Part shown: in pieces, positions 38,617 through 64,000 of the stretch
Layout: the number at the start of each line of letters is the position of its first letter
How positions within the stretch are numbered: position 1 is the first letter of the stretch
Assembly: GCF_029360665.1 (NCBI RefSeq)
Contig: NZ_JARDUB010000001.1
Location: 1-64,000, forward strand
Direction: 5' to 3'
Length of the DNA stretch: 64,000 nucleotides
Source of the DNA: Eudoraea chungangensis
GTDB taxonomy: Bacteria; Bacteroidota; Bacteroidia; Flavobacteriales; Flavobacteriaceae
The notes under the pieces: generated by a model
Databases searched by the model: none
The model's input: the letters and a program-made list of their open reading frames with translations, nothing else
Told to the model about the DNA's origin: nothing
Position numbers and translations under genes: made by a program

Positions 38617-38689
<73 letters not shown>

Positions 38690-38700
38690 CTAGTAATGAT

Positions 38701-38731: not shown

Positions 38732-38739
38732 ATGCGCTG

Positions 38740-45275: not shown

Positions 45276-48127
45276 AAACCATACTTATCCTTTCTAAGTC
45301 TAAATGCTTTTTCACCACCTTCCATAACTGACGTAATTTCGTTTTTTATTTCTTTTGCATCAATAGCGCCTTCAGCTTTAATGACACCTCTTGTTTGCGA
45401 ACTGGCATCCTTATAATCACAGCAAATCACTAATTCGGCGTCGCCGTTAACAACAAGGTTTGCATTATGACTTGTGAATACTAGCTGCCTTTTCTTCTTG
45501 GCATTCCAAATATTTTGAATTATTGCATCAATTGCACGATTGTCGATGTCGTCCTCTGGTTGGTCGATTAGCAACGGTATTCCTGGTTGATTAAGCAGAA
45601 CTGTAAGAAGTGCGGTTGCTTGTTGTCCAGCAGAAGCATCCCGAAAAGGAATTTCATCACCGAGCTCGTTATTTGTAGTGTAAAAGAATTCTGGGTCGAA
45701 TTCTAATTCTGTTGCCGATAATTGCAACCAATCATCAGTAGTGATTTTAGACTGAATCTTAAACTTGTGGTCTTCAGTAAACCCTGTGTTATCTAGTATT
45801 GGCGTCGAAGGTAAATCTTGAGGATTATCCTCGTCTAATTTAAACTCGGCAAGCAATCTTAATTCTTCGGAAACCGATATAAATTCGGAAATCGGGTCTG
45901 ATTTGCTACGAATGGCTTCCAATAAAGCATCGATTCGTTCTTCTCTAATTCTAGTACCTTCGAGTATTGAACGTAATTTTTCTTTAAAATTAGTGAGATT
46001 GATATTCTTAGTAACTATTGCTTTAATCAGGTTATTTGACAAATCTGAAAAATTTGTGGCTTGTTCGTTAAGAACTTGCACTTTTTCAATATGAAAGCTT
46101 TTCCATTCTTCTTTCTGGGCATTATAATCTAGCTCAGGATTCCCAAGCTCTTTAATTACGGATTTCCTATCAGCAATTAGACTATTGATTTCGGCGAGGC
46201 GGTCTTCAAGTCGTTTAATGTTCGCCAACTGTTCTTGACTGGATAACGATTTTCCTTTAGCTGCCTCATATTGAGAATTAAATAAGGTTTGCTTTTTTTC
46301 CCATTCTTCTACAATTTCATTATAGGCTCGCAATCCATTTTCGCTAAAAATGTCTTTTAGCTTTTCAACCGCATCGTGGATATTTTGGAATTTTGATTTC
46401 ATCTCGGTATCGAGTTTTCTAATCAGTTCCTTATTTTCAACATTATCTATGCTGGGTTCAATGGGTTCTGGATATAGTTTTAAAAGTTCAAGAAGTTCAT
46501 CAGTTTTCGTATCAAAAAGTGTGAATTCCGAATCTGTATTTTCGATAATAGTCTTTTCTAACTCAAATTTTGATTTCTTATCAATTGTTTTTTGGTCAGC
46601 TTCAGAAATACCTTTTAGCGATTCACGAATACCCTTAACCTGACCACTTATAGAACTACCTTCTATATTAAAATTGGTTATTTCATTCTGTACTTTTTTC
46701 TTACGCACCAGTTGGCTGTATGCGTTTTTCAATTTAAGGTTTGTTTCATCTAAATTGTATGAAATGCGCTCTAAGCTACTTTTAATAGGTTGTTCAATAA
46801 ATCGTTTTAGTTCTTCTGTTTTAACACCAACATCGCTCAGCTGTTTTTGACTATAGGATTGAATTGGCAACACCTTACGGATATCCTCTTCACTAACTTT
46901 TTGAAATTCAGCATCGCCAATTTTCAAAAGTATTTCACGGCTTTCAGAATTTCTCTTAACTATATGGCGCACATCATTTTTGACCATTGTTATTCGTACC
47001 TCACCTGCAACAGCAGTCAAAGTTTTTCTTATTAGAGTATCTCTGCGATTTTGAATTATATCTAACTCTTGATAGTTTCCTATTTTAACGGTTTGGTCAC
47101 AAAGTCCCCATCTTATATATTCTAAAATAGTCGATTTACCAGTTCCTCTTCCGCCTATTAAAGCGTTGTACTGTTGGTTGAAGTTTATATTGAAACTTCC
47201 TAAAAACTTTGAATTTGTAACATCTAATGACTCAATAAATATTTGCGGCATCTCTGGTTCGTCCTGGGATATTCTGGATTCTTTGGCCAAACAGGCTTGC
47301 CTTATGGCTTCTGCTGTTGGCTCTGCCCATTTTACCCAAGTGGAATATTTTCCTAATTCACGACCATCCTCGAACCTATTGTCTGATGTAGATACAAGAC
47401 CTATACTTTTGTTCCCGTAGTTAACATCCCCGCCATTGATTTTATTTTGATAACCAGATTCTTGCGATATTTCTTTATCAACATAACCGCCAACACAGGG
47501 CATCTTTATATAGTGCTCTTGGAAACCTTGCCGTATAATAGAATGCTGCCCACCTTTACCAACATTGGGAAGAACAATGTATCTGCCCTTACAGTAGTTT
47601 ACTTCATCTAAAATTTTATGAAGTTGAGCAAGATTATTAATTACCTCTTGAGAAATTCTTTGAGTTTGAATGGTATGTCTGTCGTACTTGTCCGTAGGTT
47701 GTATCCCAATAAAATTTAAGACAGAATTAAGGTGTAAATCTTCGAAATCTGAATCAAAAACAATTATGACTTGACTTGCAGGATTGGAAAGACTAAGTTC
47801 TATACCAGGAAAAACAGTTACCTTTTTTTCTGGTTCGCCCATAATATCGTGTATATCATTCTGTGCTTTGGCGACTTTTCTTAGATGTTGGACAAACACG
47901 ACATCGTGATGGTCGGTAATAGCAATGGCATCGATTCCTGCATTGCTAATTTTATCCAAGTATTCCTTGCAAAATTGCTCTCGGTCATCATCAATTTTTT
48001 GCTTTTCAGTTTGAGTTAGACCTGCTACTTGCTCAGTATTTACACCAAAACGAGCACCTGTCCAACTTATATCTCTTGGGCTGTGTACTTGGAAATCACA
48101 TCTATAAAATTTTGCGCCTTTGTCCAT
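45272..48127 (-). CDS. TrlF-family PHP plus SMC-like ATPase
   Basis: The 951-residue protein fuses a PHP metallo-phosphoesterase domain with an SMC/Rad50-like ATPase. PHP motifs are DFQVHSPRD near residue 11, IDAIAITDHHD near 66 and VFPGIELS near 105. ATPase motifs are Walker A GGRGTGKST near 328, a coiled-coil middle (about 440-760), signature SAGQQA, Walker B LLIDQPEDD and H-loop FTSHNANLVV. The TrlF family is common in mobile elements and near defence genes; a DNA- or RNA-damaging defence role is inferred. It is last in the minus-strand run, 108 bases after the nuclease-like gene, and convergent with the coupling gene. Confidence 0.85.
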   Translation of the reverse strand: MDKGAKFYRCDFQVHSPRDISWTGARFGVNTEQVAGLTQTEKQKIDDDREQFCKEYLDKISNAGIDAIAITDHHDVVFVQHLRKVAKAQNDIHDIMGEPEKKVTVFPGIELSLSNPASQVIIVFDSDFEDLHLNSVLNFIGIQPTDKYDRHTIQTQRISQEVINNLAQLHKILDEVNYCKGRYIVLPNVGKGGQHSIIRQGFQEHYIKMPCVGGYVDKEISQESGYQNKINGGDVNYGNKSIGLVSTSDNRFEDGRELGKYSTWVKWAEPTAEAIRQACLAKESRISQDEPEMPQIFIESLDVTNSKFLGSFNINFNQQYNALIGGRGTGKSTILEYIRWGLCDQTVKIGNYQELDIIQNRRDTLIRKTLTAVAGEVRITMVKNDVRHIVKRNSESREILLKIGDAEFQKVSEEDIRKVLPIQSYSQKQLSDVGVKTEELKRFIEQPIKSSLERISYNLDETNLKLKNAYSQLVRKKKVQNEITNFNIEGSSISGQVKGIRESLKGISEADQKTIDKKSKFELEKTIIENTDSEFTLFDTKTDELLELLKLYPEPIEPSIDNVENKELIRKLDTEMKSKFQNIHDAVEKLKDIFSENGLRAYNEIVEEWEKKQTLFNSQYEAAKGKSLSSQEQLANIKRLEDRLAEINSLIADRKSVIKELGNPELDYNAQKEEWKSFHIEKVQVLNEQATNFSDLSNNLIKAIVTKNINLTNFKEKLRSILEGTRIREERIDALLEAIRSKSDPISEFISVSEELRLLAEFKLDEDNPQDLPSTPILDNTGFTEDHKFKIQSKITTDDWLQLSATELEFDPEFFYTTNNELGDEIPFRDASAGQQATALLTVLLNQPGIPLLIDQPEDDIDNRAIDAIIQNIWNAKKKRQLVFTSHNANLVVNGDAELVICCDYKDASSQTRGVIKAEGAIDAKEIKNEITSVMEGGEKAFRLRKDKYGF

Positions 48128-48235: not shown

Positions 48236-49426
48236 CTAATAAAGTCCAAATCCTTTAAAATCTTCTTTCCTGTATTCTTTACTGTGTGAGATAGTTGGAT
48301 TTTTGAAATAGCCTAATTCGTCTTGTACTTCTTTGGCTTGGGATATAAATTCTTCACACATTTCTGGAATATAGTGAGCACAAATATCATAAACTTCTTG
48401 TCCGCTGCCATTGTTCCCAAAACCTAGTCCGATAACTCTTTCTACACTTGGGTTTTCCATTCTTGCAACAATACAACGAAGCTCTAGTTCTTTTTCTTTG
48501 CCTTCCCAGTTCCCGGAAGTCAAAGGCATAAAAACATAACAATGTTTGGCACCCTTCAAAGGCCTTAACATTCTTGCACTTGATTTTCTTTGAATAGCAT
48601 TATCCAAAATGCCGCCTAATTCTATTCTATTTATACGAGGTTCTTGATTGATAACTCTGATGGCATCCTCTAATTCATTTCTTCTTTCGTCAGTTGTTTC
48701 TTTAGAAATGTGATAGTTATGTAATTGGTTAATCATATAATCCCAAATATGGCTTTGAGGCAAGAGATTTTGCCATTCTGCATATTCTTCAGATTCTACA
48801 TAAGAATCCCATAAGCCACCATCAGATACTATCGAATCAACTTTTTCATCAATATCTAGACCGGTTTGAATGTAGAAAGCCAGAAAATCGGATTCTTTGG
48901 GCATTGAAAAATGTTTCCTTTTTAAGAATTGAACCTTATCTGTAAGGTATCTTGTAAAATCGGTTATAGTGTCCAATTCGGTTAAAAGAATAGAAGTAAT
49001 TTCTTCATCAAAAACGTGAACATAGCCTTGACCAAAATCCCCATACGGTAATGGGAATGTTTTGTCACTTCCAAAAGCAATTGCAATTTTGTGTATTATC
49101 CTGTCATTTATTGGTGGTAAGGAAATTTTGTTTGCTCTGTTTTTAGCATAAATTTCATCGACAGTTTTAAGATAGCGCTCAGCACCGTAGATTTGCTTTG
49201 CGGAGTCTTCAATAGCTTTTTTTACCCAACGCTCATATCTAATGTTTTCATCAGCGTGGTTTGACATTCTTATGTCCTTTACGGAAATGATTAAAACATA
49301 ATTGCCGCAAACAACCAAAACGTCACATAGCTCTTTATTCTTTTTGCCTATAGGATTTGGAAAATTCCAAAAAGGAAGAAATGATTGTTGGCAAAGGTTT
49401 GCCACATATTTTTCAGATGGCGTCAT
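48236..49426 (-). CDS. PD-(D/E)XK-like nuclease-fold protein
   Basis: The 396-residue protein starts with a restriction-nuclease-like core: PIGKKNKELCDVLVVCGN then YVLIISVKDIRMS. This matches the D-x(n)-xxK strand-turn-strand of PD-(D/E)XK enzymes, with Asp near residue 35. The position before Val-Lys is Ser, not Glu or Asp, so catalysis is uncertain. The C-terminal half (about 280-390) has GAKHCYVFMPLTSG and GLGFGNNGSGQEVYDI with no known match. It lies between the transfer lipoprotein and the TrlF-like gene on the same strand. The pair may be one defence module, but that is inferred. Confidence 0.6.
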   Translation of the reverse strand: MTPSEKYVANLCQQSFLPFWNFPNPIGKKNKELCDVLVVCGNYVLIISVKDIRMSNHADENIRYERWVKKAIEDSAKQIYGAERYLKTVDEIYAKNRANKISLPPINDRIIHKIAIAFGSDKTFPLPYGDFGQGYVHVFDEEITSILLTELDTITDFTRYLTDKVQFLKRKHFSMPKESDFLAFYIQTGLDIDEKVDSIVSDGGLWDSYVESEEYAEWQNLLPQSHIWDYMINQLHNYHISKETTDERRNELEDAIRVINQEPRINRIELGGILDNAIQRKSSARMLRPLKGAKHCYVFMPLTSGNWEGKEKELELRCIVARMENPSVERVIGLGFGNNGSGQEVYDICAHYIPEMCEEFISQAKEVQDELGYFKNPTISHSKEYRKEDFKGFGLY

Positions 49427-49862: not shown

Positions 49863-50693
49863 TTAATTTGGGTTATTGATATATCTATGTGATATATTCA
49901 GTTTTATATTGCGTTCGCCATCATTCTCATTCAATTCCAAAATTGCCCTACGGTCATCTGATAATGAAAATTTGGGCATTACATAAACAAACCGTACCAT
50001 TTTACCCTCTGCAATTTTTGAAGGCAGATGGTGCTTGCAAATAGGTTCTTGATACAAACTCTGTAAAGATTTCTTTTTCCCTTTTTGTCGAGTTTCAATG
50101 GAGAGATTCAAGAAATTCAAATCGTAATCCATCGTAGAATTATTCTCAATCTGGATAACAAAGTAGAGTTCTTCTTTATCAAAAACAACATTTTCAACGT
50201 TCAAGACAATGCCTTGCGTTCGCTTCTTAATCCGACCAATACGTTGGTTTCTGTTAAGAAGATAGGAGCAGAATTTTTGATAATAGTAGGTTCTGTTATC
50301 TATATTTTTTTCAGAAGTTACAACCTGAATCGAATCGGTTACAATTGGTTTTTCATTTCCAATGCTATTTGATAATGGAATGAAATAATTGAGCTTTGAT
50401 AGCTGCTTTTTATATCTTACAATATACGAAAAAATTGCACCATTTCTATTGACTACCAGTAGATTACTTTCTTTCCCAGGCTTCGCCTGAAGTAATCCGA
50501 AATACTGTTCTTTTTCACGATTGTAGGTAAAGACAAAATTATCTGAACCGGTTATGCCCTGTCTTATGGGTTCTGGGAAAAATAGCGCAACATTTTTAGT
50601 GTCGTTCGCATAAATTGTGTCTAGTACTGTGTCTGTTTGTGCTTTTGTAAAAGCAGAAATCAATGCTATCAATATTAAAAATAGGGTTCTCAT
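49863..50693 (-). CDS. conjugative transfer protein TraN-like
   Basis: The 276-residue protein has a signal peptide (LFLILIALISAFTKAQTD). The body is beta-rich, with VALFFPEPIRQGITGSDNFV, GLLQAKPGKESNLLVVNRNG and IFSYIVRYKKQ typical of TraN/DUF4138 of Bacteroides-type ICEs. It should be a periplasmic or outer-membrane component related to VirB9. Its start overlaps the traM stop by 4 bases, giving tight coupling. Confidence 0.9.
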   Translation of the reverse strand: MRTLFLILIALISAFTKAQTDTVLDTIYANDTKNVALFFPEPIRQGITGSDNFVFTYNREKEQYFGLLQAKPGKESNLLVVNRNGAIFSYIVRYKKQLSKLNYFIPLSNSIGNEKPIVTDSIQVVTSEKNIDNRTYYYQKFCSYLLNRNQRIGRIKKRTQGIVLNVENVVFDKEELYFVIQIENNSTMDYDLNFLNLSIETRQKGKKKSLQSLYQEPICKHHLPSKIAEGKMVRFVYVMPKFSLSDDRRAILELNENDGERNIKLNISHRYINNPN

Positions 50694-51619
50694 AATTTTG
50701 GTTTTAGTATTAGTCTATAATTGTTCAATACGGTCACTTTAACTTTCCTGTTAGTACGCCGAAATACTTGGGTAAGTCCACCCACTTGTGGAACAGTTGG
50801 AATGTTGATATCGCCTATAACATCATCCAGTACTTCCGTAGTAGCTTCTGCCCTGAAATTGTTCTGTACATAGATGCCTTCGCTACCATCCAATAAATCG
50901 AAAGCTTTAAGTTTGGTGGGATGATGTTGTATGTTTTCAATCTCGATTAAAGCACGATTGGGCTGAAAACTGATAAACCCAAAAACAGGTGTGTTCTTTG
51001 GCATCAGCTTACCGTTGATAGTTGCTGATTTAGTAAGGCGCATTCGTAATCGGGTAGTTGCTTTGACAACCTGGTCGCCATCTACAACTACATAAATAGT
51101 TGCATCTGTATTGCCTATAATCGAAATTTCATTGGGTTTAGGCGAAGCGGCAAAGAACAGTTGGTGTTCCAGCCCCAATTCTTTAGCCTCAATTTTTTGT
51201 TCTCGCCTTATTTCGGCAGAATCTGTTTGCTGGACATTGTTTTTAGCAACTTTCTTTTGCCCAAGGTTTTGATACTTCTTTTCAGAGTATTGAATTTTAC
51301 CAGCATCGTAAATACTATCTACAATGCGTTCTTTTTCCCGTTCCGGAAGGTCTGGGTCATAAAAACCCAAGGAATCAATCAGTTTTTCGTCATAGATGCT
51401 GGGTGCATTATTTTCGCGCACTTCCTTTAAATCATTTATGGCATCCAATTTTGAATCATACTCTTTTTGGTTCTCATCTAAATCAGGTATCAAGGTCTGT
51501 TCAAGATTTTCATTATCACTTTCGTCATCGCCCATTACCATCATAGAATAGGATATCAGGAATATGAAAATCACAACCAATACGGCTGCAAATACAATTT
51601 TATTTTTTTCAACTTTCAT
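50690..51619 (-). CDS. conjugative transfer protein TraM-like
   Basis: The 309-residue protein has an N-terminal membrane segment (IVFAAVLVVIFIFLISYSMM) and a charged periplasmic spacer. A C-terminal VirB10-like domain includes the stretches RLRMRLTKSATINGKLMPKN and TPVFGFISFQPNRALIEIEN. It bridges inner and outer membranes in the secretion channel. It overlaps traK by 11 bases and traN by 4. Confidence 0.9.
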   Translation of the reverse strand: MKVEKNKIVFAAVLVVIFIFLISYSMMVMGDDESDNENLEQTLIPDLDENQKEYDSKLDAINDLKEVRENNAPSIYDEKLIDSLGFYDPDLPEREKERIVDSIYDAGKIQYSEKKYQNLGQKKVAKNNVQQTDSAEIRREQKIEAKELGLEHQLFFAASPKPNEISIIGNTDATIYVVVDGDQVVKATTRLRMRLTKSATINGKLMPKNTPVFGFISFQPNRALIEIENIQHHPTKLKAFDLLDGSEGIYVQNNFRAEATTEVLDDVIGDINIPTVPQVGGLTQVFRRTNRKVKVTVLNNYRLILKPKL

Positions 51620-53671: not shown

Positions 53672-56074
53672 TTATGTTTTAGATGTGAATTCTTTTATTG
53701 CCAATTCCATATCATTGGTCTTTTTATAAATGGCCATTATGGTCTCATTTTCCTGTCCATCGGTTAGGTAGGCTGCATATACTTCCTTTGGAACTTCTAG
53801 CCTAAAAATGTTGCTTTCCTTTCCTATTTTGATGAACATTTCGGTGTACTTCCGTGGACCGGAAAGATTGTTTTTGATGGACTTTAATTGGTTTAAATCG
53901 TGGCTGGATAAATTGAGCCTTTTGACCAATTCGTCATAGCCTTTTTCATTATTCAGACTATAAATGACCTGCGTATTTTCAAGAATACTTGCTGAAGTTG
54001 AATTGTTGGGAAGCTGATTTATAGATTGAAGAATAATGCCTATCGCACCATTCTGTTTTCGGATGGCTTGATAGTAAAATTCAACACTTTCCAGTACGTT
54101 TTCAAACTTCAGTTGCTTTGCAAACTCATCGAAAAGGATAATGCCTTTCTCAGCTCTGTTTTTCCAAATAGTTCTTTGGATGGCAGACTTAATCAGCTTG
54201 AGCATAACTGATAAGATTTCCTTGTTATCCTTTACTTCATCCAGCTCAAAAACAATCAATCGTTTGTCTTCGATTTTATAGGTCTGGTCTTCGCTTACTT
54301 CAAAAAGGAAGCTGTATAGACCATCGCCGACGTATTCAGACATTACGTGCAAAAAGCTTGTAATATTGAAGTAGTCGGGATGGATTTTCAAGGTGTCCAG
54401 AAGGTCTTTCTGATTCCTTTCTATAAAGTTGTAGAAACCATCTAAAGAATGATTTTCCGAAGTATTATTGTAATAGTGGCGCAATATCTTTTTGACCGAA
54501 ACCGATTGTGCTTTCGTCACTTTTAAATCAGAAGCAAACAATTCAAACAGGAAGACGGACAAGTCTTCCAAACGTTCAGGTGCCAAGTCATTTGTATCAC
54601 TTATATAAAAAGGATTGATACCCAGGTTCTTTCCACTTTCATAGCGAAGTACTGTGTATTTTTCAGGGTAGAGTTTTGCAAATTTGGTATAAGAACCACC
54701 CAAATCGATGATGACCAAACGAATGCCACTTTCAAAATACTGGCGTAGAATGTTATTGGCTAAAAAGGACTTGCCTTCGCCAGTAGGCGCAAAAATGGCA
54801 AAGTTTCTTGCCTTAATGCGCTTCTTGCGTTCGTCCCAAACATCTTTAAGAACAGGCACATTATGTTCTCTATCATTAAAGATGATTCCGGTAGTATCAG
54901 AATTATAATTGGTGTTATTGATGAACAGGCATAAAGCGTGTTTTAAATCGGTAACATATAAATCGTTGTTTGAAAAGTTTGAAGAAAAGCAGCAGTAACT
55001 ATTCAAGATATAATTCTTTCGTTCCTCACCTCTAGGATAGTATGGGATAATGTCTAGTTCCTTAAACTCGGTCTTTATTTTTGAACCAATTCGACTTAAA
55101 TTTTCTGGGTTCTTGTCCCAATAAATTATATTCAAATGACCACGAATAATGCGTGCATTATCATCAGCGTTAATTTGGTCAAGGATATGCTGAATTTTAC
55201 CGAGGACTACTTTATTCTGCGAACCGAAGTTGGAACTTTTATTAAGTTCTTCAACTTTCTTATCCAGTAGCTTGCGCCACTTCTGTTTGTCATCCAAATA
55301 AAGGATTTGGTTGACAATATGATTTTCGTTAAGCGTAAGCCCTAAGCCATCAATAAACCCTTGATGAAATACAAAATCGTCAGAAGTGAATTTCTCATTA
55401 GTCTTGCTACTCTGTACACTTTCGCCAAAGCACAGTTCGCTATTGATAGCCAGGGCATCAAAATGGTTTTCGCCAATATTGACGCTTTTTTTATCTAGTA
55501 TGATATCCGTATCAAACCCATCATTAAAGCCATTGAAATAACCATTGGTTAACTGCTGTATATCTTTCGCTTTAAGCGAAATAAACTTCATTTTTCGACT
55601 ATTGTTTATGAAGGAAACGGAATCACTAACAGCCCCGATGAAGCTCTTAACATTGTCATCTAATTGTTGAGCAATCCCCTTAGAAACTTTACGGAAAGGG
55701 TTGACATATTTTGAATTATTCAGCGCTTTGTTCTTAGTGAGTGTAAAGAACAAAAAGCAACGATGTTCCATATAGCCACGTCCTTTGAAGTGGTCGTGTG
55801 TCGCTTTTTCTAAAAACGTTGTATTCGGAAGTGCTTCTGAAGTGTACGTCTTTTTAAGATAGATATCCTGTTTTTGCACCACAGTACCAATTGGCAATGA
55901 TTTTAAAGCTTGAAACCAAGCACCATGTATATCTTCAAACTCTTTTTCGGATAGTGAATATATCTCTGGCAACTTACCTTCATAGCACAAGACGACATTG
56001 CCATTATTGGCAAATATGATATTGTCTTGAATATCTACAATAGGTTGATATGCAGAAAGATTAATCTTGTTCAT
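53672..56074 (-). CDS. conjugation ATPase TraG-like (VirB4)
   Basis: The 800-residue protein is the motor ATPase of the transfer channel. Walker A APTGEGKSFLANNIL lies at about residue 435-445, and Walker B is GIILFDEFAKQLKF at about 655. The C-terminal VirB4-type blocks are QNGAIGIILQSINQLPNN and TQVIYSLNNEKGYDELVKRL. The start is placed at the ATG at 56074, since the frame two codons upstream begins with TTG. It overlaps the TraF-like gene and precedes TraI. Confidence 0.93.
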   Translation of the reverse strand: MNKINLSAYQPIVDIQDNIIFANNGNVVLCYEGKLPEIYSLSEKEFEDIHGAWFQALKSLPIGTVVQKQDIYLKKTYTSEALPNTTFLEKATHDHFKGRGYMEHRCFLFFTLTKNKALNNSKYVNPFRKVSKGIAQQLDDNVKSFIGAVSDSVSFINNSRKMKFISLKAKDIQQLTNGYFNGFNDGFDTDIILDKKSVNIGENHFDALAINSELCFGESVQSSKTNEKFTSDDFVFHQGFIDGLGLTLNENHIVNQILYLDDKQKWRKLLDKKVEELNKSSNFGSQNKVVLGKIQHILDQINADDNARIIRGHLNIIYWDKNPENLSRIGSKIKTEFKELDIIPYYPRGEERKNYILNSYCCFSSNFSNNDLYVTDLKHALCLFINNTNYNSDTTGIIFNDREHNVPVLKDVWDERKKRIKARNFAIFAPTGEGKSFLANNILRQYFESGIRLVIIDLGGSYTKFAKLYPEKYTVLRYESGKNLGINPFYISDTNDLAPERLEDLSVFLFELFASDLKVTKAQSVSVKKILRHYYNNTSENHSLDGFYNFIERNQKDLLDTLKIHPDYFNITSFLHVMSEYVGDGLYSFLFEVSEDQTYKIEDKRLIVFELDEVKDNKEILSVMLKLIKSAIQRTIWKNRAEKGIILFDEFAKQLKFENVLESVEFYYQAIRKQNGAIGIILQSINQLPNNSTSASILENTQVIYSLNNEKGYDELVKRLNLSSHDLNQLKSIKNNLSGPRKYTEMFIKIGKESNIFRLEVPKEVYAAYLTDGQENETIMAIYKKTNDMELAIKEFTSKT

Positions 56075-56345
56075 AATCAAAGCCTGAGTTTCTTTTGTTA
56101 CTTATTATCTTCGGAAAAGCCTTAGCCATCTGAAAAATTTGCGGGTTATGTGTTATTCTCGTTAAGGCTACGTATAAGGCAGCATTGAAAACGAGTATTC
56201 CAATTATTATCCCGAAGCTGAAAGAGAAGATTATGATGAGCAGCGAAGCCAAAATAGAAACCATCATCAGAGCAAACAGGGAAATAGGCAGTCCAAAAAT
56301 GACCGCCCTTTTCCTAATGTTTTTATAGACCTCGAAGCGTTTCAT
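56061..56345 (-). CDS. conjugative transfer protein TraF-like (DUF4133)
   Basis: The 94-residue protein opens MKRFEVYKNIRKRAVIFGLP. Two adjacent membrane segments (LFALMMVSILASLLIIIFSF, GIIIGILVFNAALYVAL) and a basic C-terminus follow. It matches DUF4133/TraF, the VirB3-like inner-membrane partner of the VirB4 ATPase. It abuts the TraE stop and overlaps TraG. Confidence 0.88.
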   Translation of the reverse strand: MKRFEVYKNIRKRAVIFGLPISLFALMMVSILASLLIIIFSFSFGIIIGILVFNAALYVALTRITHNPQIFQMAKAFPKIISNKRNSGFDYEQD

Positions 56346-56633: not shown

Positions 56634-56822
56634 AATAAAACTGTTTAGATTTTTTATTCATTTTCTCTTTCTGAAATTTACATATATTTGTACATAAATA
56701 ACTGAAAATCAAATATTTGTGAATAAAATATTATTTGAAATCAATTGATTTTAATTGCTATTATTTGGCATCAAATTCTATGAGTTTTTGAAGGAAAGCT
56801 GTTGATAACCCGAAAATTGAAA

Positions 56823-57449
56823 ATGAAAAAAGTGCTCAAAAACGTCAGTTTTGTGATTTTGGTTCTAAAAATGTGTATCGTTTTTGGACAGGAAACTGCG
56901 TCTCAAAAAAGAATAATTATTGACGTTGGTCACGGTGGAAAAGATTCTGGTGCAATTGGCATAAATGGCATCCAAGAAAAGGATATTGTATTGAATATTG
57001 CGAATGCCATTTTGAAGCTAAATAATGAATTGGATAAGCCTCTGGACATTTATTTAACCAGATATAATGATACACTCATTTCGCTATCTGACAGAACGAA
57101 GCTGGCCAAGGCACTGAATGCCGATTTGTTTTTGTCTTTGCATTGTAATCATTCGGATAATGCTAATGCAAGAGGAATTGAAGTATATGTGGCTAACACT
57201 ATTACACGGCATTCTGATGATTCTACTTGGCTTGCTTTTCAATTACAAACAGGCCTTAATAAGAGAGTAGGTTTTGAAAGTAGGGGCGTGAAGTTTGCGA
57301 ACTTTCAAGTGCTGAAGGAAACGATTGGTTATTGCTCTTCTTTGCTTTTGGAATTGGGGTTTTTGAGTAATACAGATGAAAATGCATACTTATCAAATTT
57401 GAAAAGAACTAAAATTCTTGCACGTACAATATATAAATCAATAAAATAG
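56823..57449 (+). CDS. N-acetylmuramoyl-L-alanine amidase (Amidase_3)
   Basis: The 208-residue protein has a signal-like N-terminus (KNVSFVILVLKMCIVFGQ). The zinc-amidase motifs are intact: IIIDVGHGGKDSGA (first His), NGIQEKDIVLN (Glu), LFLSLHCNHSDN (second His) and LLLELGFLSN (catalytic Glu). It cuts peptide side chains off the glycan strand. Next to traE it is probably the cell-wall hydrolase that opens a path for the transfer channel. The ATG at 56823 is preferred to the TTG at 56802. Confidence 0.92.
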   Translation: MKKVLKNVSFVILVLKMCIVFGQETASQKRIIIDVGHGGKDSGAIGINGIQEKDIVLNIANAILKLNNELDKPLDIYLTRYNDTLISLSDRTKLAKALNADLFLSLHCNHSDNANARGIEVYVANTITRHSDDSTWLAFQLQTGLNKRVGFESRGVKFANFQVLKETIGYCSSLLLELGFLSNTDENAYLSNLKRTKILARTIYKSIK

Positions 57450-57623: not shown

Positions 57624-58946
57624 TTGAACGAGAATAATAAAATAAATTTTGATTTTGTAAAAGAGATTAAGGAACCAGGTGTTTACCAACTACTCTTCCC
57701 AAAGAAGGAAGTTGGGTTGGCCGTTATGGTTTTATTTGAGAAAATTAAAGACAAATCTTTACCTGACGGAAAGTTTGTCGAAAAAGACCTTCACAATGCT
57801 TTTGCCCAGATAACCAAACCAAACGAAAGATATCCTAAAGAGATTTATAGCGAACATATAAAGGACCTTCAGGAATATTTTTTAGACTATAATCAAGAAA
57901 CGCAGAAATATTATTTTAAGGATTATGCACATAGGTTCTATGCTTATGCAAAAGAAACTTTAAAGGGTAACTTCAGTCCTACACATATAGAGAAAATATG
58001 TAGCCTTCTTACTGCTTCATTAAAACAAAGAGAATCCTTAGAAGATTTAAAGTTTTGGCTCAAATCTGAGTTCAAAAAATATGAGCCCGACCTGAGAGAA
58101 CAGGTGGATTTTTTAGATAGACAAATTATTGAATCTGTAAATAAGCTTAAAAATAATACCACTAATTCCGATAAGAAATTTATTGACCTTTTACGTGAAG
58201 TAGAAAGCAATCTAGATAGAGCACAAGACCAAAGTAGAGAATTAGCAGCAGCCTATTCTGAAACTAAAGTGATACGCTCAATTCTAGAAAAACGAGACGA
58301 TACAGATTCTGAAGCAGACGATTTAATTGCAGACGTTCACTTCTTTATCAAATATCTCAACGAAAGACTAGATTCTATCGATGGAAAACTCGATAGAATT
58401 CAGCCAAAGATTAGGCATTTGTTCTCTATTTTAAATAGACCTCAGTTCAACAGTAAAATTGAAAAATTTCTGCACTTCCTATTGGATAAAAGTACCATTA
58501 CCAGCAAAAAGGAAACCCTTCTTCCAAAGGTGGTCGAAAATCCAATTTTACATATAGACACACCTAATTTCACCATAGTTGAGAGAGAAAGAGAATTATT
58601 CCCTTCTAAACCCAAAAAGAGAGTTTCCTATAAATCAAACGAAGTGAAGATTGAGGAAAATACGCAAAGTATTTTAAAGGTGCTCACTCAACAGGATTTG
58701 ATTAGAAAATGGGAACAACACATCATTGCCGAAATAGAACTAAGGGGCAGCATCGATTTGTCCGAAACATTTTTCAAGATTATGGAAGAAACAAATGATG
58801 GACAGATAGCTGTAAGTGCAATCTATAGCTCAATACAACAAGCACGTAAATCAAAAAGTTTTGATTTCAAAATGAATAAAACCAAACAGACCAATAGCAA
58901 AATAGAGCATATAAGTTTATGGAAAATGAGTATACAAAAGATATAA
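57624..58946 (+). CDS. Wadjet/Mks-like kleisin-type subunit (JetA/MksF-like)
   Basis: The 440-residue protein is helical: an N-terminal winged-helix-like half (KEPGVYQLLFPKKEVGLAVM, QNPHIEKICSLLTASLKQRE-type region) and a coiled-coil middle (about residues 165-245). A C-terminal helical part closes it (WEQHIIAEIELRGSIDL). The first codon is TTG; the next ATG would cost 35 residues. It is first in a four-gene run shared with MksE-like, SMC-like and Toprim genes, which identifies it as the kleisin. Its end overlaps the MksE-like start by 28 bases. The protein itself is divergent, and the call rests on gene order. Confidence 0.7.
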   Translation: MNENNKINFDFVKEIKEPGVYQLLFPKKEVGLAVMVLFEKIKDKSLPDGKFVEKDLHNAFAQITKPNERYPKEIYSEHIKDLQEYFLDYNQETQKYYFKDYAHRFYAYAKETLKGNFSPTHIEKICSLLTASLKQRESLEDLKFWLKSEFKKYEPDLREQVDFLDRQIIESVNKLKNNTTNSDKKFIDLLREVESNLDRAQDQSRELAAAYSETKVIRSILEKRDDTDSEADDLIADVHFFIKYLNERLDSIDGKLDRIQPKIRHLFSILNRPQFNSKIEKFLHFLLDKSTITSKKETLLPKVVENPILHIDTPNFTIVERERELFPSKPKKRVSYKSNEVKIEENTQSILKVLTQQDLIRKWEQHIIAEIELRGSIDLSETFFKIMEETNDGQIAVSAIYSSIQQARKSKSFDFKMNKTKQTNSKIEHISLWKMSIQKI

Positions 58947-59566
58947 GGGTACAATTTTTAGACCATCCTGACACAGAAGAATTATTTGCCTCTTTGGACT
59001 ATATGTTGAAAGATGGCGTTCATTTTCAAAGGGAAGGAAGTCAAGCAAGATTCTACAACTATATCTATTCTAATATAGATAGCTTAAAAGCATACTACCA
59101 GTCTTTATTCAATGTTGAATTGACTTTTGGTGGAACAGAAACAAGAGGGTATTACTTTTTAGATTTTATAGGTAATACAAGAGGTCAAATAGATGCGGGA
59201 CATAGATATCATATGAAGAGTGAGCACGTTATAATCGGCTTCGTTATTTACAAGATTTTTTTCATAGATAATCAAATAGATGTTGTTTCTGTAAAAGACT
59301 TGCAAAAGAAGATTAGAACTGATTATGAAGATTTAAAGCCAGGTATTTATAGATTGATTGCAAAATCGAGAAATACCAACCCTGGAAATTTAAACGATGA
59401 TGCCATAGATTCAACTGTAGAATCTGCACTTAGAGAATTCAAAAAAATAGGTTGGGTAACATTAAATGATGACGAGTTCGACTTATTGCCAGCTTTTGAT
59501 AGATTGATTGCCATACACGAAGACCATATAAACAATATAGACGAAACCCTAAATGAATTGAAATGA
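58919..59566 (+). CDS. MksE/JetB-like condensin subunit
   Basis: The 215-residue protein has the MksE-family layout. The N-terminal part reads HPDTEELFASLDYMLKDGVH, then FNVELTFGGTETRGYYFLDF. The C-terminal winged-helix regions follow, with RTDYEDLKPGIYRLIAKSRN and STVESALREFKKIGWVTL. MksE/JetB binds the kleisin and contacts DNA in SMC complexes. It overlaps its neighbours by 28 and 4 bases, so all three subunits are translationally coupled. Confidence 0.8.
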   Translation: MENEYTKDIRVQFLDHPDTEELFASLDYMLKDGVHFQREGSQARFYNYIYSNIDSLKAYYQSLFNVELTFGGTETRGYYFLDFIGNTRGQIDAGHRYHMKSEHVIIGFVIYKIFFIDNQIDVVSVKDLQKKIRTDYEDLKPGIYRLIAKSRNTNPGNLNDDAIDSTVESALREFKKIGWVTLNDDEFDLLPAFDRLIAIHEDHINNIDETLNELK

Positions 59567-62500
59567 AAAGATACCCTAGAATAAAAAGATTATCCACTCT
59601 GGGCATCGTGCATCATCAATCATTTGATTATGATTTCAACCCATTTAGAACCGACTTTGTTGGCGAGGGTGGTTCTGGCAAAAGTATGATTGCAGATATT
59701 CTACAACTCATTTTTGTTGGTTCTGCTGCATTTCATTCACCTACAGATAGTAGCGAGCCAAGGAAACCCAAAACAATGGTATTAAGGACTGGTGGCAAAG
59801 GAACAGATATGGGTTACGCCTTTATTAATGTAGAACTTGGCAAAGATGCCTTTGTAGCCATAGGCATATACCTTGAAAGTACAGGAAGCTCACACTCTTT
59901 CATTATTCAACAAGGCGAAAATTTTGAGCCAGAAGATGAATTACTTCCATTTGGTAAAGCCCTTGGTTTCTCAGATTTTCTAAAGGACAACAGCATCTTG
60001 CCAATAGAGGATTTAAAAAATCACATATTCGATACTAAAGGATATGTATGTGAATCTTGGACAAGATTAGATAAGTTTCACAAGCTATTATTTGAAAATT
60101 ATATTATTCCGGTTGACTTATCTATTAATCAAGAATCTTTAAAAAGCTATGCTAAAATTATTCAGGCTTTTTCCAGAGAATCATTGGATATAAAAAAAAG
60201 CGAGAAAATTCAGGAATTTCTCTTTGGAAACGATAAGGAAAAAGAGCTTAAGCTAGATTTTGATAAGGCTGTTGAAGAATTGAGTGGCGATATACGTCAG
60301 TTTGAATCTAATAGAGATGAGATTGATAGGTTAACACATAAGCAAACAGAACTACAAGAACTTCTTAGTTTAAAAAAGGATAGAGACGAGGCTCAAAGCG
60401 ATTTTTCAAACACAAAATTTCACTACTTAAATCAGCAGATTGAAAAGTCTAATGTGAAAATGGTACAAAGGTTAAATTCCTTTTTCAATAATCGAAACAT
60501 CTTAATTGGGCTTAAAAATTTTGCCGAGACTAAAGTTGAAGAACTGAAATTGAATATACCTGCTTTAGACGAAGAATTTGATAAAGCTTCTGCGGCAAGA
60601 ATGTTATGGCTAGGAAAAAGCAATGACTTGAAAAAGTATTTTTCTTGGATGCAACACTTTGAAAAGACGGGTAAGGAACTGTTAGAACATTATCGAAACT
60701 ATCATAAAAATAAACAGGACATTGAGCGAATAGAAGAGTTTAAGTCACTTTTAAAAGACAGTGGTATTTACAGTTTCTTTGGAAAAAATAATAAACTCAA
60801 CAAGGATTCATTGTTGAATATAGCAGAAACAGTCAATGCAATCGAGAAGTCACTCGAAGAGAAAAAGAAACTAAAGGTCCTCAATAATTTAGATGATACT
60901 TCATCACTTGCGCATTGGGCGTTAAATCTTAAAAGAGGATTGAGCCCTAAAGAGGAAAGTGTAGTACACAAATATCAAAACGATAATATTACCACCAAAG
61001 AACCTATAAATGGGATAAAGTCAAGGTATATTCCAGACCCAAAATTGTTGATTGAAAATCTGCAGGTCACAAAAGATGAAGATGATGGATTTTGGTTGGA
61101 TTTAGGTGGTGTTCGTGAGTATATTCCTTATGTACCAGAACCAATATTTGATACTGGTAACTCAGATAAAATCAAGGAATATTTTTCAAATCAAAAGGCA
61201 ACTTTGGACAATGATATCAAGGATTTAGAAAAAGAATTTAGGAACTGGACGATTTTAAAAGGATTGCTAAATAAGCTGGATAACCCATCAGCGTACCTTT
61301 TGTCTTGGGAATTAAAAGATGCCAATTCTAAGTTCGATAAGCACGAGTTGTATGAGGAAACAGCGGATGAAGTAAAACGTTATTTGAAATTACTTGATGA
61401 AGACGAAAAGATAGATGATGGACTCAAAAAGGCAAACAAGACCTACAAGAAAATAGACAAAAAGCGTTCTGAAAATTCTTCTATAATTAAAGGATTAGGA
61501 ACAAGTCTGAAAACGATTTCAATTCCTGAAATCGATGATGATGTCAGGAAATTGACCACAAAGTATAATTATCGGACAAAAGACACGGATGGCTTTGAGA
61601 GTGTAAAAACAACACTTAATGAACAAAAGAGTTTCTATGATGCTTTTATTACTACCCTACACAAAGAGTCAAAAAATGAAATTGCTATTGAAGATTTAAA
61701 ATTTGAAGATAAAGCAATAGATGTCTTTAAAGCGGATTTGCAAAAATTAGTTGATGTACACCCAAAAGTTATTTCAGAAATTAATACGGATGAGAGTGAA
61801 GTTACCGCAGAAGCATTAGATGCAAAAGATGCAATTAATTCAGAATGCCAAAGACAATACAATCATAAATATGTTTTAGTCATAAAGGAATTTTTGAAAG
61901 AAAAAGCCAATCGCTATTTAGAAACAGATGATTTTAAACAGATATGCTCAGAAATTCTACCACCAGAGATTTTTTCGGAAAAGGATTTAGAAGATGATGA
62001 AATCATCCCACGTATTAAAAAGTTGCTTGACGACATCAACATCAAGAATAAAAAACTGAATATTAGAAAGCTGCAAAAGTTAACGAGCATCGTTGATAAG
62101 GTCAATACTGAGGTAAGCGAACAGATATATTACTCAAGAAAAATTAGGGATTTCATTGATGCAGACGATAAGACGATTACTGGCGGTCACAGGGCAAAAC
62201 TGTCCATCAATTTTGAAAACAGTTATCCTAGAGGCTGGATGGAAGACTTTATTGATAAAATACGCGAAGATATTAGAGTGTCTAGTGAGAATAATTTATT
62301 CAATGATTTACAAGGTGTTTCAAACGAATTGGAAAAGTACACGTCTTTAGAAGAGAAAATGCAGGAAGCTTTTTATAGATGCGGTGGTTCTAGAAATCTA
62401 AAACCTAAAGTTTTAGAATTACTTAATCCAAAATCATATTATGGATTAAACTTTACCATTCAATCCTTACACGGAAAAACTAATCCAGGAAGCACAAGCC

Positions 62501-62814
62501 AAACCTATGCAGCAATTGCCCTTTTGTGTATTGCTAGACTCTCATTAATTAATAGAGGTGCTAAAGATAAAGTAAGGGATGGAATTAGGTTTATGCCCAT
62601 TGACGAAGCAGCAGGACTAGGAAGTAATTTTGATATGCTTTACGACATTGCTAAGGCAAATGATTACCAGATTATATCGTTATCAATACAGCCATATAAA
62701 GTAGATATGTTGAACCAATATATCTATTTGCTTCATAATAACTTAGAAGAATCTGATAAGGTAAATTATGAACCGGTTCCAATATTTGGGGATTTTGAGA
62801 ACAATAATAATTAA
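59563..62814 (+). CDS. SMC-like ATPase (MksB/JetC-like)
   Basis: The 1083-residue protein has Walker A GEGGSGKS at residues 34-41 and long coiled coils (about residues 230-480 and 560-880). The hinge-like region lies near 500-560. The C-terminal signature is GSTSQ (976-980), and Walker B FMPIDEAAGLG starts at 1010, with the Asp-Glu pair at 1014-1015. This is the MukB/JetC form of SMC, shorter than chromosomal MukB. It should extrude DNA loops using ATP. It overlaps MksE by 4 bases and is followed 29 bases later by the Toprim gene. Confidence 0.88.
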   Translation: MKRYPRIKRLSTLGIVHHQSFDYDFNPFRTDFVGEGGSGKSMIADILQLIFVGSAAFHSPTDSSEPRKPKTMVLRTGGKGTDMGYAFINVELGKDAFVAIGIYLESTGSSHSFIIQQGENFEPEDELLPFGKALGFSDFLKDNSILPIEDLKNHIFDTKGYVCESWTRLDKFHKLLFENYIIPVDLSINQESLKSYAKIIQAFSRESLDIKKSEKIQEFLFGNDKEKELKLDFDKAVEELSGDIRQFESNRDEIDRLTHKQTELQELLSLKKDRDEAQSDFSNTKFHYLNQQIEKSNVKMVQRLNSFFNNRNILIGLKNFAETKVEELKLNIPALDEEFDKASAARMLWLGKSNDLKKYFSWMQHFEKTGKELLEHYRNYHKNKQDIERIEEFKSLLKDSGIYSFFGKNNKLNKDSLLNIAETVNAIEKSLEEKKKLKVLNNLDDTSSLAHWALNLKRGLSPKEESVVHKYQNDNITTKEPINGIKSRYIPDPKLLIENLQVTKDEDDGFWLDLGGVREYIPYVPEPIFDTGNSDKIKEYFSNQKATLDNDIKDLEKEFRNWTILKGLLNKLDNPSAYLLSWELKDANSKFDKHELYEETADEVKRYLKLLDEDEKIDDGLKKANKTYKKIDKKRSENSSIIKGLGTSLKTISIPEIDDDVRKLTTKYNYRTKDTDGFESVKTTLNEQKSFYDAFITTLHKESKNEIAIEDLKFEDKAIDVFKADLQKLVDVHPKVISEINTDESEVTAEALDAKDAINSECQRQYNHKYVLVIKEFLKEKANRYLETDDFKQICSEILPPEIFSEKDLEDDEIIPRIKKLLDDINIKNKKLNIRKLQKLTSIVDKVNTEVSEQIYYSRKIRDFIDADDKTITGGHRAKLSINFENSYPRGWMEDFIDKIREDIRVSSENNLFNDLQGVSNELEKYTSLEEKMQEAFYRCGGSRNLKPKVLELLNPKSYYGLNFTIQSLHGKTNPGSTSQTYAAIALLCIARLSLINRGAKDKVRDGIRFMPIDEAAGLGSNFDMLYDIAKANDYQIISLSIQPYKVDMLNQYIYLLHNNLEESDKVNYEPVPIFGDFENNNN

Positions 62815-62843
62815 GACGTAAAACACCAATATGTAAAATCAGA

Positions 62844-63791
62844 ATGAAAAAAGATGTTGAATGGAAATATCTGATTGGTCTTAACCAACTATATAAAAAC
62901 GAAAAGACCAACTTGAAGATTAGCAACAATAGCTTTATTAAACAAATACTAATGAAGCAAAAAAAGTTGATAAAGCCCAAGATGGGTAACCCTAATATTT
63001 TGGAAGCCAAATATGGCTTTAAGGTATATTATGAAAAAGAATTTTTGGACTATTTCGAGTATTATTCCAACTTCTTTGAAAAAGCTGGATTAGAGAGTAA
63101 CGCACACAAAACCTATAATGAGGATGACTTAAAAAGTTTAGCTTTTATTTATTATCAGAAAGACCAACTTAAAAAAAATCTTACAACGGAATATACTTTC
63201 TCAGCGAGAGTTTTTAAAGGGAAAGGGGCAAAATATTTAACAAATAAGCCCAGTTTACGCAATGCAGTATTACAGCTTCTGGAAATTGATGAGTTCCCAG
63301 AGAAAGACCCGAAGAATGCACAATGGCGATTCGTAGTAGATTGTGAAAATCCTAAGTTGGTTGTTATTTGCGAAAATATAGCATGCTTAAAAGTACCCTA
63401 CGAATACAAACAGAATAATATAGAATTATGGTATGTAGGTGGTAACAATACCAATCCTTTAAAAGATATTCCTGACAAAAAAATAGAATTACCTCTATTT
63501 TACTTTTGCGATTGGGACCATCACGGACTATCTATTTTTTCGAGAATAAAAGACATCTTTAAAGAAAAAGGAAAAGAAATAACATTAATTGAACCTACTT
63601 CATTAGATGATGCACTACCTGTAAATTCGCCACATCATAAAAGTAAATGGCGCAAAAAGGAATTTTCAGGATTAAAAATTGAGGACTTTTCTACGCAACA
63701 ACAAGAAATAATCAACAGTTTAATTCAAGATGATATTTGGGTAGAGGAAGAGTCGATGGACTTGATTGAGCTTCTTTCTGAGATAAATTGA
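62844..63791 (+). CDS. Toprim nuclease (JetD/MksG-like)
   Basis: The 315-residue protein has an N-terminal domain (1-150) of the DUF3322 type. Its C-terminal domain has the Toprim acidic residues: Glu177 in LVVICENIACL and Asp223-x-Asp225 in FYFCDWDHHGLSIFSRIKD. In Wadjet systems JetD uses these to cut the circular DNA caught by the SMC motor. It is somewhat shorter than most JetD proteins (about 380-400 residues). It starts 29 bases after the SMC-like stop and ends the visible core operon. Confidence 0.85.
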   Translation: MKKDVEWKYLIGLNQLYKNEKTNLKISNNSFIKQILMKQKKLIKPKMGNPNILEAKYGFKVYYEKEFLDYFEYYSNFFEKAGLESNAHKTYNEDDLKSLAFIYYQKDQLKKNLTTEYTFSARVFKGKGAKYLTNKPSLRNAVLQLLEIDEFPEKDPKNAQWRFVVDCENPKLVVICENIACLKVPYEYKQNNIELWYVGGNNTNPLKDIPDKKIELPLFYFCDWDHHGLSIFSRIKDIFKEKGKEITLIEPTSLDDALPVNSPHHKSKWRKKEFSGLKIEDFSTQQQEIINSLIQDDIWVEEESMDLIELLSEIN

Positions 63792-63818: not shown

Positions 63819-64000
63819 TTGGTAGAGATAGAAAAAATAGATTCAAAACTTGTATTAAAATACTATTCCGATTATGAACCTACGGAATGGTTAGATAAGA
63901 AACTGGAAACACTAATTCCTTTTAAAATCAAGCACATTTTTAATGTTGGAAGTAAATCTCTTCTTAAAAGGGTTGAAAATGAATTTGAAGAATCTGAGTA
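63819..64000 (+). CDS. partial ORF downstream of the SMC operon
   Basis: An open frame starts with TTG at 63819, 27 bases after the Toprim stop. It stays open to the last base (60 codons). An in-frame stop directly upstream rules out an earlier start. The visible part is helical and charged (VLKYYSDYEPTEWLDKKLET, SLLKRVENEFEES). No family can be assigned from 60 residues. Spacing and strand fit a fifth gene of the same operon. Confidence 0.55.
   Translation, partial: MVEIEKIDSKLVLKYYSDYEPTEWLDKKLETLIPFKIKHIFNVGSKSLLKRVENEFEESE

Follow-up and report, generated by a model that had tools for sequence, protein, structure and literature searches.

Operon organization and reading frames

We analyzed a 64,000-nucleotide stretch of the Eudoraea chungangensis genome (positions 1 to 64,000 of contig NZ_JARDUB010000001.1; hereafter, the window), in which a first-pass annotation made from the letters alone had described a four-gene SMC defence operon of the Wadjet/Mks type within a conjugative element. 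The operon as originally observed is real. It spans positions 57624-63791, and the listing of open reading frames (ORFs) gives four genes on the + strand with overlaps of 28 and 4 bases and one gap of 29 bases, in agreement with the coordinates first proposed:

57624-58946, + strand: kleisin subunit (JetA/MksF/MukF position), 440 aa, TTG start
58919-59566, + strand: KITE subunit (JetB/MksE/MukE position), 215 aa, Pfam PF21980 MksE
59563-62814, + strand: SMC-type ABC ATPase (JetC/MksB/MukB position), 1083 aa, Walker A and Walker B
62844-63791, + strand: Toprim nuclease subunit (JetD/MksG position), 315 aa, E177, D223, D225, E302, E303

The proposed set of kleisin, KITE, SMC and Toprim nuclease genes was borne out, for the kleisin by a low-confidence predicted fold. 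The SMC protein carries the Walker A motif that had been placed at residues 34-41 (GEGGSGKS) and the Asp1014-Glu1015 pair of Walker B, together with a signature-like GSTSQ at residues 976-980. Among 11 aligned SMC sequences, the window protein included, K40 and E1015 are conserved in 11/11 and D1014 in 8/11, with glutamate replacing it in the three most distant. A promoter scan was uninformative, with 29 predicted promoters vs 27.9 in shuffled sequence.

The Toprim nuclease subunit

Residues E177, N178, D223, D225, E302 and E303 are invariant in 12/12 aligned Toprim sequences, the window protein included; the first-pass annotation had already singled out Glu177, Asp223 and Asp225. For comparison with Wadjet type I we used a set of eight loci (L083-L089 and L094). 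PADLOC typing covered the four proteins of L083 and, from L085, the nuclease; the remaining members were assigned from JetD_C matches, gene order and alignment. In hhalign comparisons, for which three unrelated pairs gave a background of P 0.26-0.43, the Toprim protein aligned with the eight type I-like JetD proteins at P 9.4e-7 over residues 170-304. Its active-site residues fell in register, with CEN on EN, DWDxxG on DxDxxG, and the final glutamates on the LEQE of type I JetD; the first-pass assignment had been made to depend on such an alignment of the acidic residues. Cutting by C. glutamicum MksG requires the corresponding residues E236 and D279, and E349/E351 have been proposed as nucleophiles (PMC10123090). 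The Toprim protein therefore has both the metal-binding and the proposed nucleophile acidic residues of the broad Wadjet group (MksBEFG). It also matched the PADLOC JetD1 model (E 2.9e-4, 18 bits) and, under the cut-off, Pfam JetD_C (7.6e-4).

An AlphaFold2 (AF2) model of the protein (pLDDT 84) has a winged-helix (WH)-plus-Toprim fold. In a Foldseek search of the PDB, the top match was TopoVI-A (1d3y, 7.6e-4), followed by P. aeruginosa JetD (7til_B, 5.7e-3). The same model had no match at E<=0.001 in a viral structure library, where the top rows were mostly primase-type Toprim proteins. By sequence and predicted structure, gene 4 encodes a JetD/TopoVI-A-type Toprim protein with predicted nuclease activity.

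The SMC, KITE and kleisin core

The KITE subunit matched the Pfam MksE family (PF21980) with E 8.1e-22 and 78.8 bits against a cut-off of 27. The same model also matches in the E. coli and C. glutamicum control genomes and, because it matches E. coli, cannot separate MksE from MukE. In hhalign comparisons, the KITE subunit reached P 9.2e-7 with E. coli MukE vs P 1.3e-3 with the type I JetB set, the control pair JetB1 and MukE giving P 0.024. For the N-terminal head of the SMC proteins of this lineage, the values were P 7.7e-7 with MukB and P 1.8e-5 with the type I JetC set. The control pair JetC1 and MukB gave P 2.2e-6, and therefore the SMC protein by itself fails to place the lineage any nearer to MukB than JetC1 lies. 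No Pfam family was above cut-off for the window SMC (MukB at 0.07), and profiles of the four proteins run against the sequences of solved structures returned nothing significant, the best match being the MukB N-terminal domain at 0.26.

The kleisin matched no Pfam family above cut-off and no PADLOC family at E<=1. Its AF2 model (mean pLDDT 68.5) consists of an N-terminal winged-helix-like part, a helical bundle, a low-confidence linker and a C-terminal part. Foldseek ranks 1-8 for this model were all chains from MukBEF or MukE-MukF structures, which we regard as MukF because they are 290-440 residues long (MukE has 234); the best was 9gm7_C (E 3.2e-7, TM-score 0.43), and a Jet core chain, 8q72_E, followed at rank 9 (1.3e-2). 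Two members of the core, the KITE subunit by its sequence and the kleisin by its predicted fold, and only these, suggest a lean toward MukE and MukF.

Placement against the Wadjet profile models

At E<=1, a PADLOC scan found no family for the kleisin, KITE and SMC proteins of the window, and only JetD1 for the Toprim protein. As a yardstick, a type I system from the same phylum (L083) scored 448/214/1213/405 bits with JetA1/JetB1/JetC1/JetD1. The operon thus falls outside Wadjet type I as delimited by the PADLOC JetA1-D1 profiles. The Pfam families PF13555 and PF13558 were above cut-off in 3/3 type I-like SMC proteins vs 0/5 SMC proteins of the present clade. For Wadjet types II and III, the comparison ran through their PADLOC models only, and no type II or III Jet match was obtained at E<=1 among the four window proteins. 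The type II and III JetD models, each searched in 148 Bacteroidota genomes, gave weak matches in 4 and 10 genomes, and 4/4 and 10/11 of these places coincide with JetD_C loci (the eleventh is G126:C67); these searches yielded no sequence of either type. Because of the PADLOC and PF13555/PF13558 results, we place the clade outside the profile definition of the named Wadjet types. The first-pass label, a "Wadjet JetABCD / MksFEBG set", thus stands for the broad group and fails for type I. Likewise, the profile searches it had proposed for the four proteins supported MksE for the KITE subunit and, weakly, JetD1 for the Toprim protein, and gave no Jet family for the other three.

Scanned with PADLOC, the 11 SMC proteins of the clade reached LmuB in 3/11 (best 1.1e-5), JetC1 in 2/11 (best 4e-4) and AriA in 1/11 (1.2e-3); the window SMC matched none of these three at 0.1. 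Pfam MukB was above cut-off in one relative (L016, 6.6e-7) and just below it in another (L008, 3.4e-4). A tree of SMC heads was built from 11 members of the present clade (L095 left out), 7 type I-like proteins and one MukB. The present lineage formed a clade of its own with support of 100/99, separate from JetC1 and not within it, which agrees with the earlier suggestion of a separate subtype; the proposed phylogeny against the Wadjet types was carried out in so far as this type I-like set represents them. On the unrooted tree, the stems measure about 3.55 changes per column for the clade (2.9 + 0.65 across the midpoint root), 3.56 for JetC and 3.09 for MukB, with the root not fixed and MukB flagged as a long branch of odd composition. 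Judged by these sequences, the present clade, JetC1 and MukB appear as three lineages about equally distant from one another. The gene set is that of the broad Wadjet group (MksBEFG), namely co-directional kleisin, KITE, SMC ATPase and Toprim genes, the kleisin being recognized by its low-confidence predicted fold only. Sequences and models together put the operon in the wider Wadjet/MukBEF group, short of type I membership.

Distribution and selection

A genome scan identified 10 loci with a related operon. Their hosts are Croceitalea (L002, with an identical SMC), Leeuwenhoekiella blandensis, Bizionia echini, Mesonia aquimarina, Salegentibacter, Flavobacterium luminosum, Lutibacter and three metagenome-assembled genomes labelled Flavobacteriaceae. 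All four genes are intact and in order in 8/10 of these loci; L010 stops inside the SMC gene, and the kleisin of L009 is in two ORFs. Five additional genomes carry the set, two at 42-44% SMC identity (G012, L015; G431, L091) and three distant ones at 23-24% (G002, L016; G419, L092; G449, L093). An IMG/VR contig (L095) also holds it, with a kleisin of 33% and a nuclease of 38% identity and the SMC in two ORFs. This was the sole locus in viral contigs and was found by two JetD profiles; SMC and kleisin profiles had no match there. Searches by tblastn found no match in a plasmid collection with the window SMC, the window nuclease or the G002 SMC, and none in a phage collection with the window nuclease. 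The operon is rare: with the own genome counted, it was found in 3/395 Bacteroidota genomes by the SMC protein, in the same 3/395 by the JetD profile, and in 5/99 genomes of relatives by the SMC profile.

The ratio of nonsynonymous to synonymous substitution rates (dN/dS) was estimated against relatives carried, like the window operon, on integrative and conjugative elements (ICEs). Wherever dS was finite, the four genes gave values of 0.015-0.103, the nuclease gene 0.036-0.103 across five such relatives. Against L008 and L011, the ratio was estimable for the SMC gene alone (0.17 and 0.19, at a dS of 2.7-2.8). Since the four-gene order recurs in distant relatives and dN/dS is low, the operon is beyond chance. 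Given the open frames and the low dN/dS, we rejected gene decay.

Two neighbourhoods met in this survey hold other genes. Directly upstream of the G002 operon copy are genes for a DRT reverse transcriptase (UG5) and a nitrilase (L016:13836-17167). In G186, an MksE-family match lies near an 887-aa P-loop protein (L090:8779-13954), with no JetD_C match listed for this genome; these genes appear to be another SMC-like set.

The carrier element and its cargo site

Sequence features place the operon as cargo of an ICE of about 53.5 kb in a tRNA-Met gene, delimited and equipped as follows:

38617-38690: tRNA-Met gene
38648-38690, + strand: attL, the final 43 bases of tRNA-Met; a second copy, differing at two bases, forms attR (contig 92168-92210)
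43695-45275, + strand: type IV coupling protein (Pfam TrwB_AAD_bind 9.2e-16, T4SS-DNA_transf 7.7e-14)
50690-51619, - strand: TraM of the conjugation module (Pfam Transposon_TraM 5.9e-39)
53672-56080, - strand: VirB4/TraG-type conjugation ATPase (Pfam P-loop_TraG 1.3e-61)
56802-57449, + strand: amidase, left border of the ICE cargo site (Pfam Amidase_3 2.6e-45)
63819-64000, on to contig 65003, + strand: start of the SduA (Shedu) gene, from a second, distinct defence system of the cassette
Contig 90791-92062: tyrosine integrase gene, adjoining the far ICE end

The att repeats, integrase, coupling protein, VirB4/TraG ATPase and TraM bear out the conjugative element of the first description; the circular transfer form credited to it is expected from this anatomy rather than observed. 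The SduA gene starts 27 bases past the Toprim gene, and its product, on the adjoining contig part L017, scores 445 bits with PADLOC and 8.3e-31 with Pfam SduA_C.

With the own genome counted, 31/120 genomes of the family carry VirB4 of this ICE kind, at a total of 39 places. Of the 38 other places, we examined the cargo sites at the 15 with the best scores, which belong to 13 genomes. An amidase homologue stands beside TraE/TraF/VirB4-like genes in 15/15, and the far border, a 220-aa replication-type gene, was reached in 13/15 (all except L132 and L135). The operon is missing from 14/15 of these sites; the exception, L126, is taken as the same Bizionia echini contig as L005. In one element (L121), just about 100 bases separate the two borders. 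Elsewhere the site holds SspD- and SspC-type genes (L128:7343-11687, scanned) or a type IIG restriction enzyme (L127), and the cargo of L123 and L132 resembles the L128 Ssp genes, by ORF sizes and N-termini only; further sites hold other genes. Because varied cargo lies between constant borders, we regard the site as a hotspot used by defence systems among others. SduA follows the operon in the window, L002, L004 and L007. In L003, L005 and L006 a two-gene set takes its place, the larger protein of which matches LmuB in L005, the only one scanned.

In the comparison with L007, the four operon genes have a dS of 0.35-0.46 and SduA 0.62, vs 1.97 for VirB4, 0.95 for the amidase and saturation for the replication-type gene. 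Relative to L010, the kleisin is 92% and the KITE subunit 97% identical, vs 72% for VirB4 and 48% for the amidase. The comparisons with L004-L006 give no clear sign of an operon younger than the backbone (dS of 0.83-2.43 for the operon and 1.22-1.50 for VirB4). From the L007 and L010 contrasts, the cassette appears to have moved between ICE backbones, exchanged apart from them, at least in some pairs.

One distant version, that of G419 (23% SMC identity), adjoins SSB and relaxase-type genes (DUF5712, which we take to be a relaxase) of an apparent ICE of the same family. The VirB4 of this genome is 91% identical and lies about 14 kb from the operon, across an unread stretch, and the hotspot of its ICE (L130) is filled by other genes. 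Two versions about 23% identical in SMC thus occur at two sites of an apparent single ICE family, from which we infer two acquisitions of such a system by this family, each at its own site.

Proposed function and alternative readings

Our preferred reading, to which we give a probability of about 75%, is that the operon encodes an SMC nuclease with four subunits, which belongs to a deep lineage of the Wadjet/MukBEF group missed by the PADLOC Wadjet models, and constitutes an ICE-borne circle-cutting defence cassette. In Wadjet I, DNA is reeled in by the motor, and the Toprim nuclease is set off when a small circle has been extruded completely (PMC10586767). By analogy, the products of the present operon most likely recognize circular DNA and cut it. 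The SMC ATPase, with the MukF-like kleisin and the KITE subunit as its bridge, would form the motor that reels in DNA; once a small closed circle had been fully reeled in, the state of the motor would release the JetD-like Toprim dimer, which would then make a double-strand cut. The outcome would be the removal of incoming plasmids, and perhaps also of circular forms of phages or rival elements, by a defence cassette travelling with Shedu in the ICE cargo hotspot. What the sequences and models show is which genes are present and in what order, their active-site residues, their similarity of fold, the selective constraint on them and the surrounding element; defence genes in the neighbourhood and at the hotspot of sister ICEs also speak for the reading. 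That the subunits would form a complex, extrude loops, sense circles and cut them in defence is modelled here on the characterized Wadjet I.

Several observations weigh against this reading. The SMC profile matches extend over the N-terminal head only. The kleisin, rightly described at first as highly divergent, gave P 0.2 with MukF and P 0.2 with type I JetA, neither significant and both worse than the control pair JetA1 and MukF (P 0.053), and its relationship depends on the model with a pLDDT of 68.5. The Toprim protein is short, as had been remarked, with 315 aa vs 380-403 in the type I set (65-88 residues fewer), and its sequence match to type I JetD is confined to the Toprim half. Just two of its Foldseek matches, both TopoVI-A chains, reach 0.001, with TM-scores of 0.33-0.36 and root-mean-square deviations >14; a differing angle between the two domains may account for the low TM-scores. 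The core resembles MukBEF, a chromosome organizer, about as much as it resembles Wadjet. Finally, circles above roughly 100 kb escape Wadjet (PMC10586767). A carrier circle of 53.5 kb would be smaller, so size alone would not spare it and self-avoidance is required. Since Wadjet operons are known on circular plasmids, for which self-avoidance has already been raised (PMC10586767), this puzzle is neither fatal nor new. Possible solutions include a short-lived circle, single-strand passage in transfer, expression that is off when the element is excised, or another size limit.

If the operon is, as is likely, a defence lineage missed by the PADLOC models, and likely a circle cutter on an element expected to pass through a circle, self-avoidance becomes a concrete question. 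In titles and abstracts on Wadjet, Mks, MukB and ICEs, we found no publication naming this lineage. However, a survey of the Wadjet group has applied iterated profiles to 254,733 bacterial genomes (PMC7617805) and may include these operons.

A more tentative possibility, to which we give clearly less credence, is that the operon represents a surviving Wadjet-MukBEF intermediate, a MukBEF-type core retaining a JetD-type nuclease that would have been recruited more than once by Bacteroidota mobile elements and would have to spare its own circle. How Wadjet arose and how it is related to other SMC complexes are regarded as unsettled, and Wadjet has been speculated to have given rise to MukBEF (PMC10586767). 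A lineage in which a core leaning toward MukE and MukF has retained a JetD-type nuclease would be of use in testing this idea, by tree and experiment.

As judged for types II and III from their PADLOC models, it is unlikely that the operon merely represents a divergent form of one of the named Wadjet types (I, II or III). It shares with the type I/MksBEFG systems of E. coli GF4-3, P. aeruginosa PA14 and C. glutamicum the same four parts in the identical order of kleisin, KITE, SMC and Toprim, a similar SMC length (1083 aa vs 1122-1171 aa in the type I set), the EN / DxD / paired Glu motifs and the WH-plus-Toprim nuclease model; the sole PADLOC match is JetD1, and the JetC1 matches of two relatives and the SMC alignment with the JetC set point the same way. 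In contrast to type I, the window operon lacks a PADLOC JetA, JetB or JetC match and has PF13558 and PF13555 under cut-off, its nuclease is shorter, and its kleisin model is nearer to MukF than to Jet core chains. The SMC clade, with a stem as long as that of JetC1, and the stronger match of the KITE subunit to MukE than to JetB1 also argue against membership.

Still less probable is a MukBEF-like system for organizing ICE or chromosomal DNA, with a Toprim protein that would serve as a topoisomerase-like or maintenance factor (for example, in partition or stabilization of the ICE circle) and not as a weapon. E. coli mukFEB has the same kleisin-KITE-SMC order with overlapping genes and a kleisin also of 440 aa, its KITE and SMC proteins can be aligned with the present ones by profile, and the kleisin model matches MukF. 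This lean of the core, the place of TopoVI-A as best structural neighbour of the Toprim protein and the carriage of copies on ICEs are consistent with such a role. MukBEF itself is counted within the Mks/Wadjet group (PMC7617805). MukB, however, has 1486 aa vs 1083 aa for the present SMC, and mukFEB, a standing chromosomal system, is a core without an adjoining Toprim gene, whereas every copy of the present operon read downstream has one. The present operon is rare and mobile: it is absent from nearly all other cargo sites examined, the hotspot holds other defence genes in sister ICEs, and in some pairs the operon was exchanged apart from the ICE backbone. It also occurs where the stretch read shows no conjugation gene (L008, L011, L015, L016).

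Lamassu (LmuA/B/C) shares an SMC-like ATPase, and LmuB is reached by the three clade members noted above, but we rejected it: in the PADLOC scan of the four window proteins, which is also where LmuA and LmuC were sought, the SMC reached no LmuB model at E<=1, and the window has a KITE subunit, a MukF-like kleisin and a JetD-type Toprim protein in place of the Lamassu subunits (composition as given in PMC10586767).

Other genes and repeats of the element

Further genes were noted elsewhere in the same ICE. At 45272-48127, a defence-type gene encodes a 951-aa ATPase with a weak PHP-domain match and a PADLOC Ppl match of 1e-39. The 396-aa protein encoded at 48236-49426 has a NERD nuclease match under the cut-off; a homologue (L093:3259-4455) is encoded two genes downstream of the Toprim gene of the distant G449 operon. 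In the right part of the ICE (contig 70857-90095; L017, L018), ORF reading revealed apparent heavy-metal efflux genes encoding CzcA-like proteins and metal P-type ATPases. Just inside both ICE ends, at 38738 and contig 92040, there is an identical stretch of at least 24 bases in direct orientation, and these two copies are possibly integrase arm sites.

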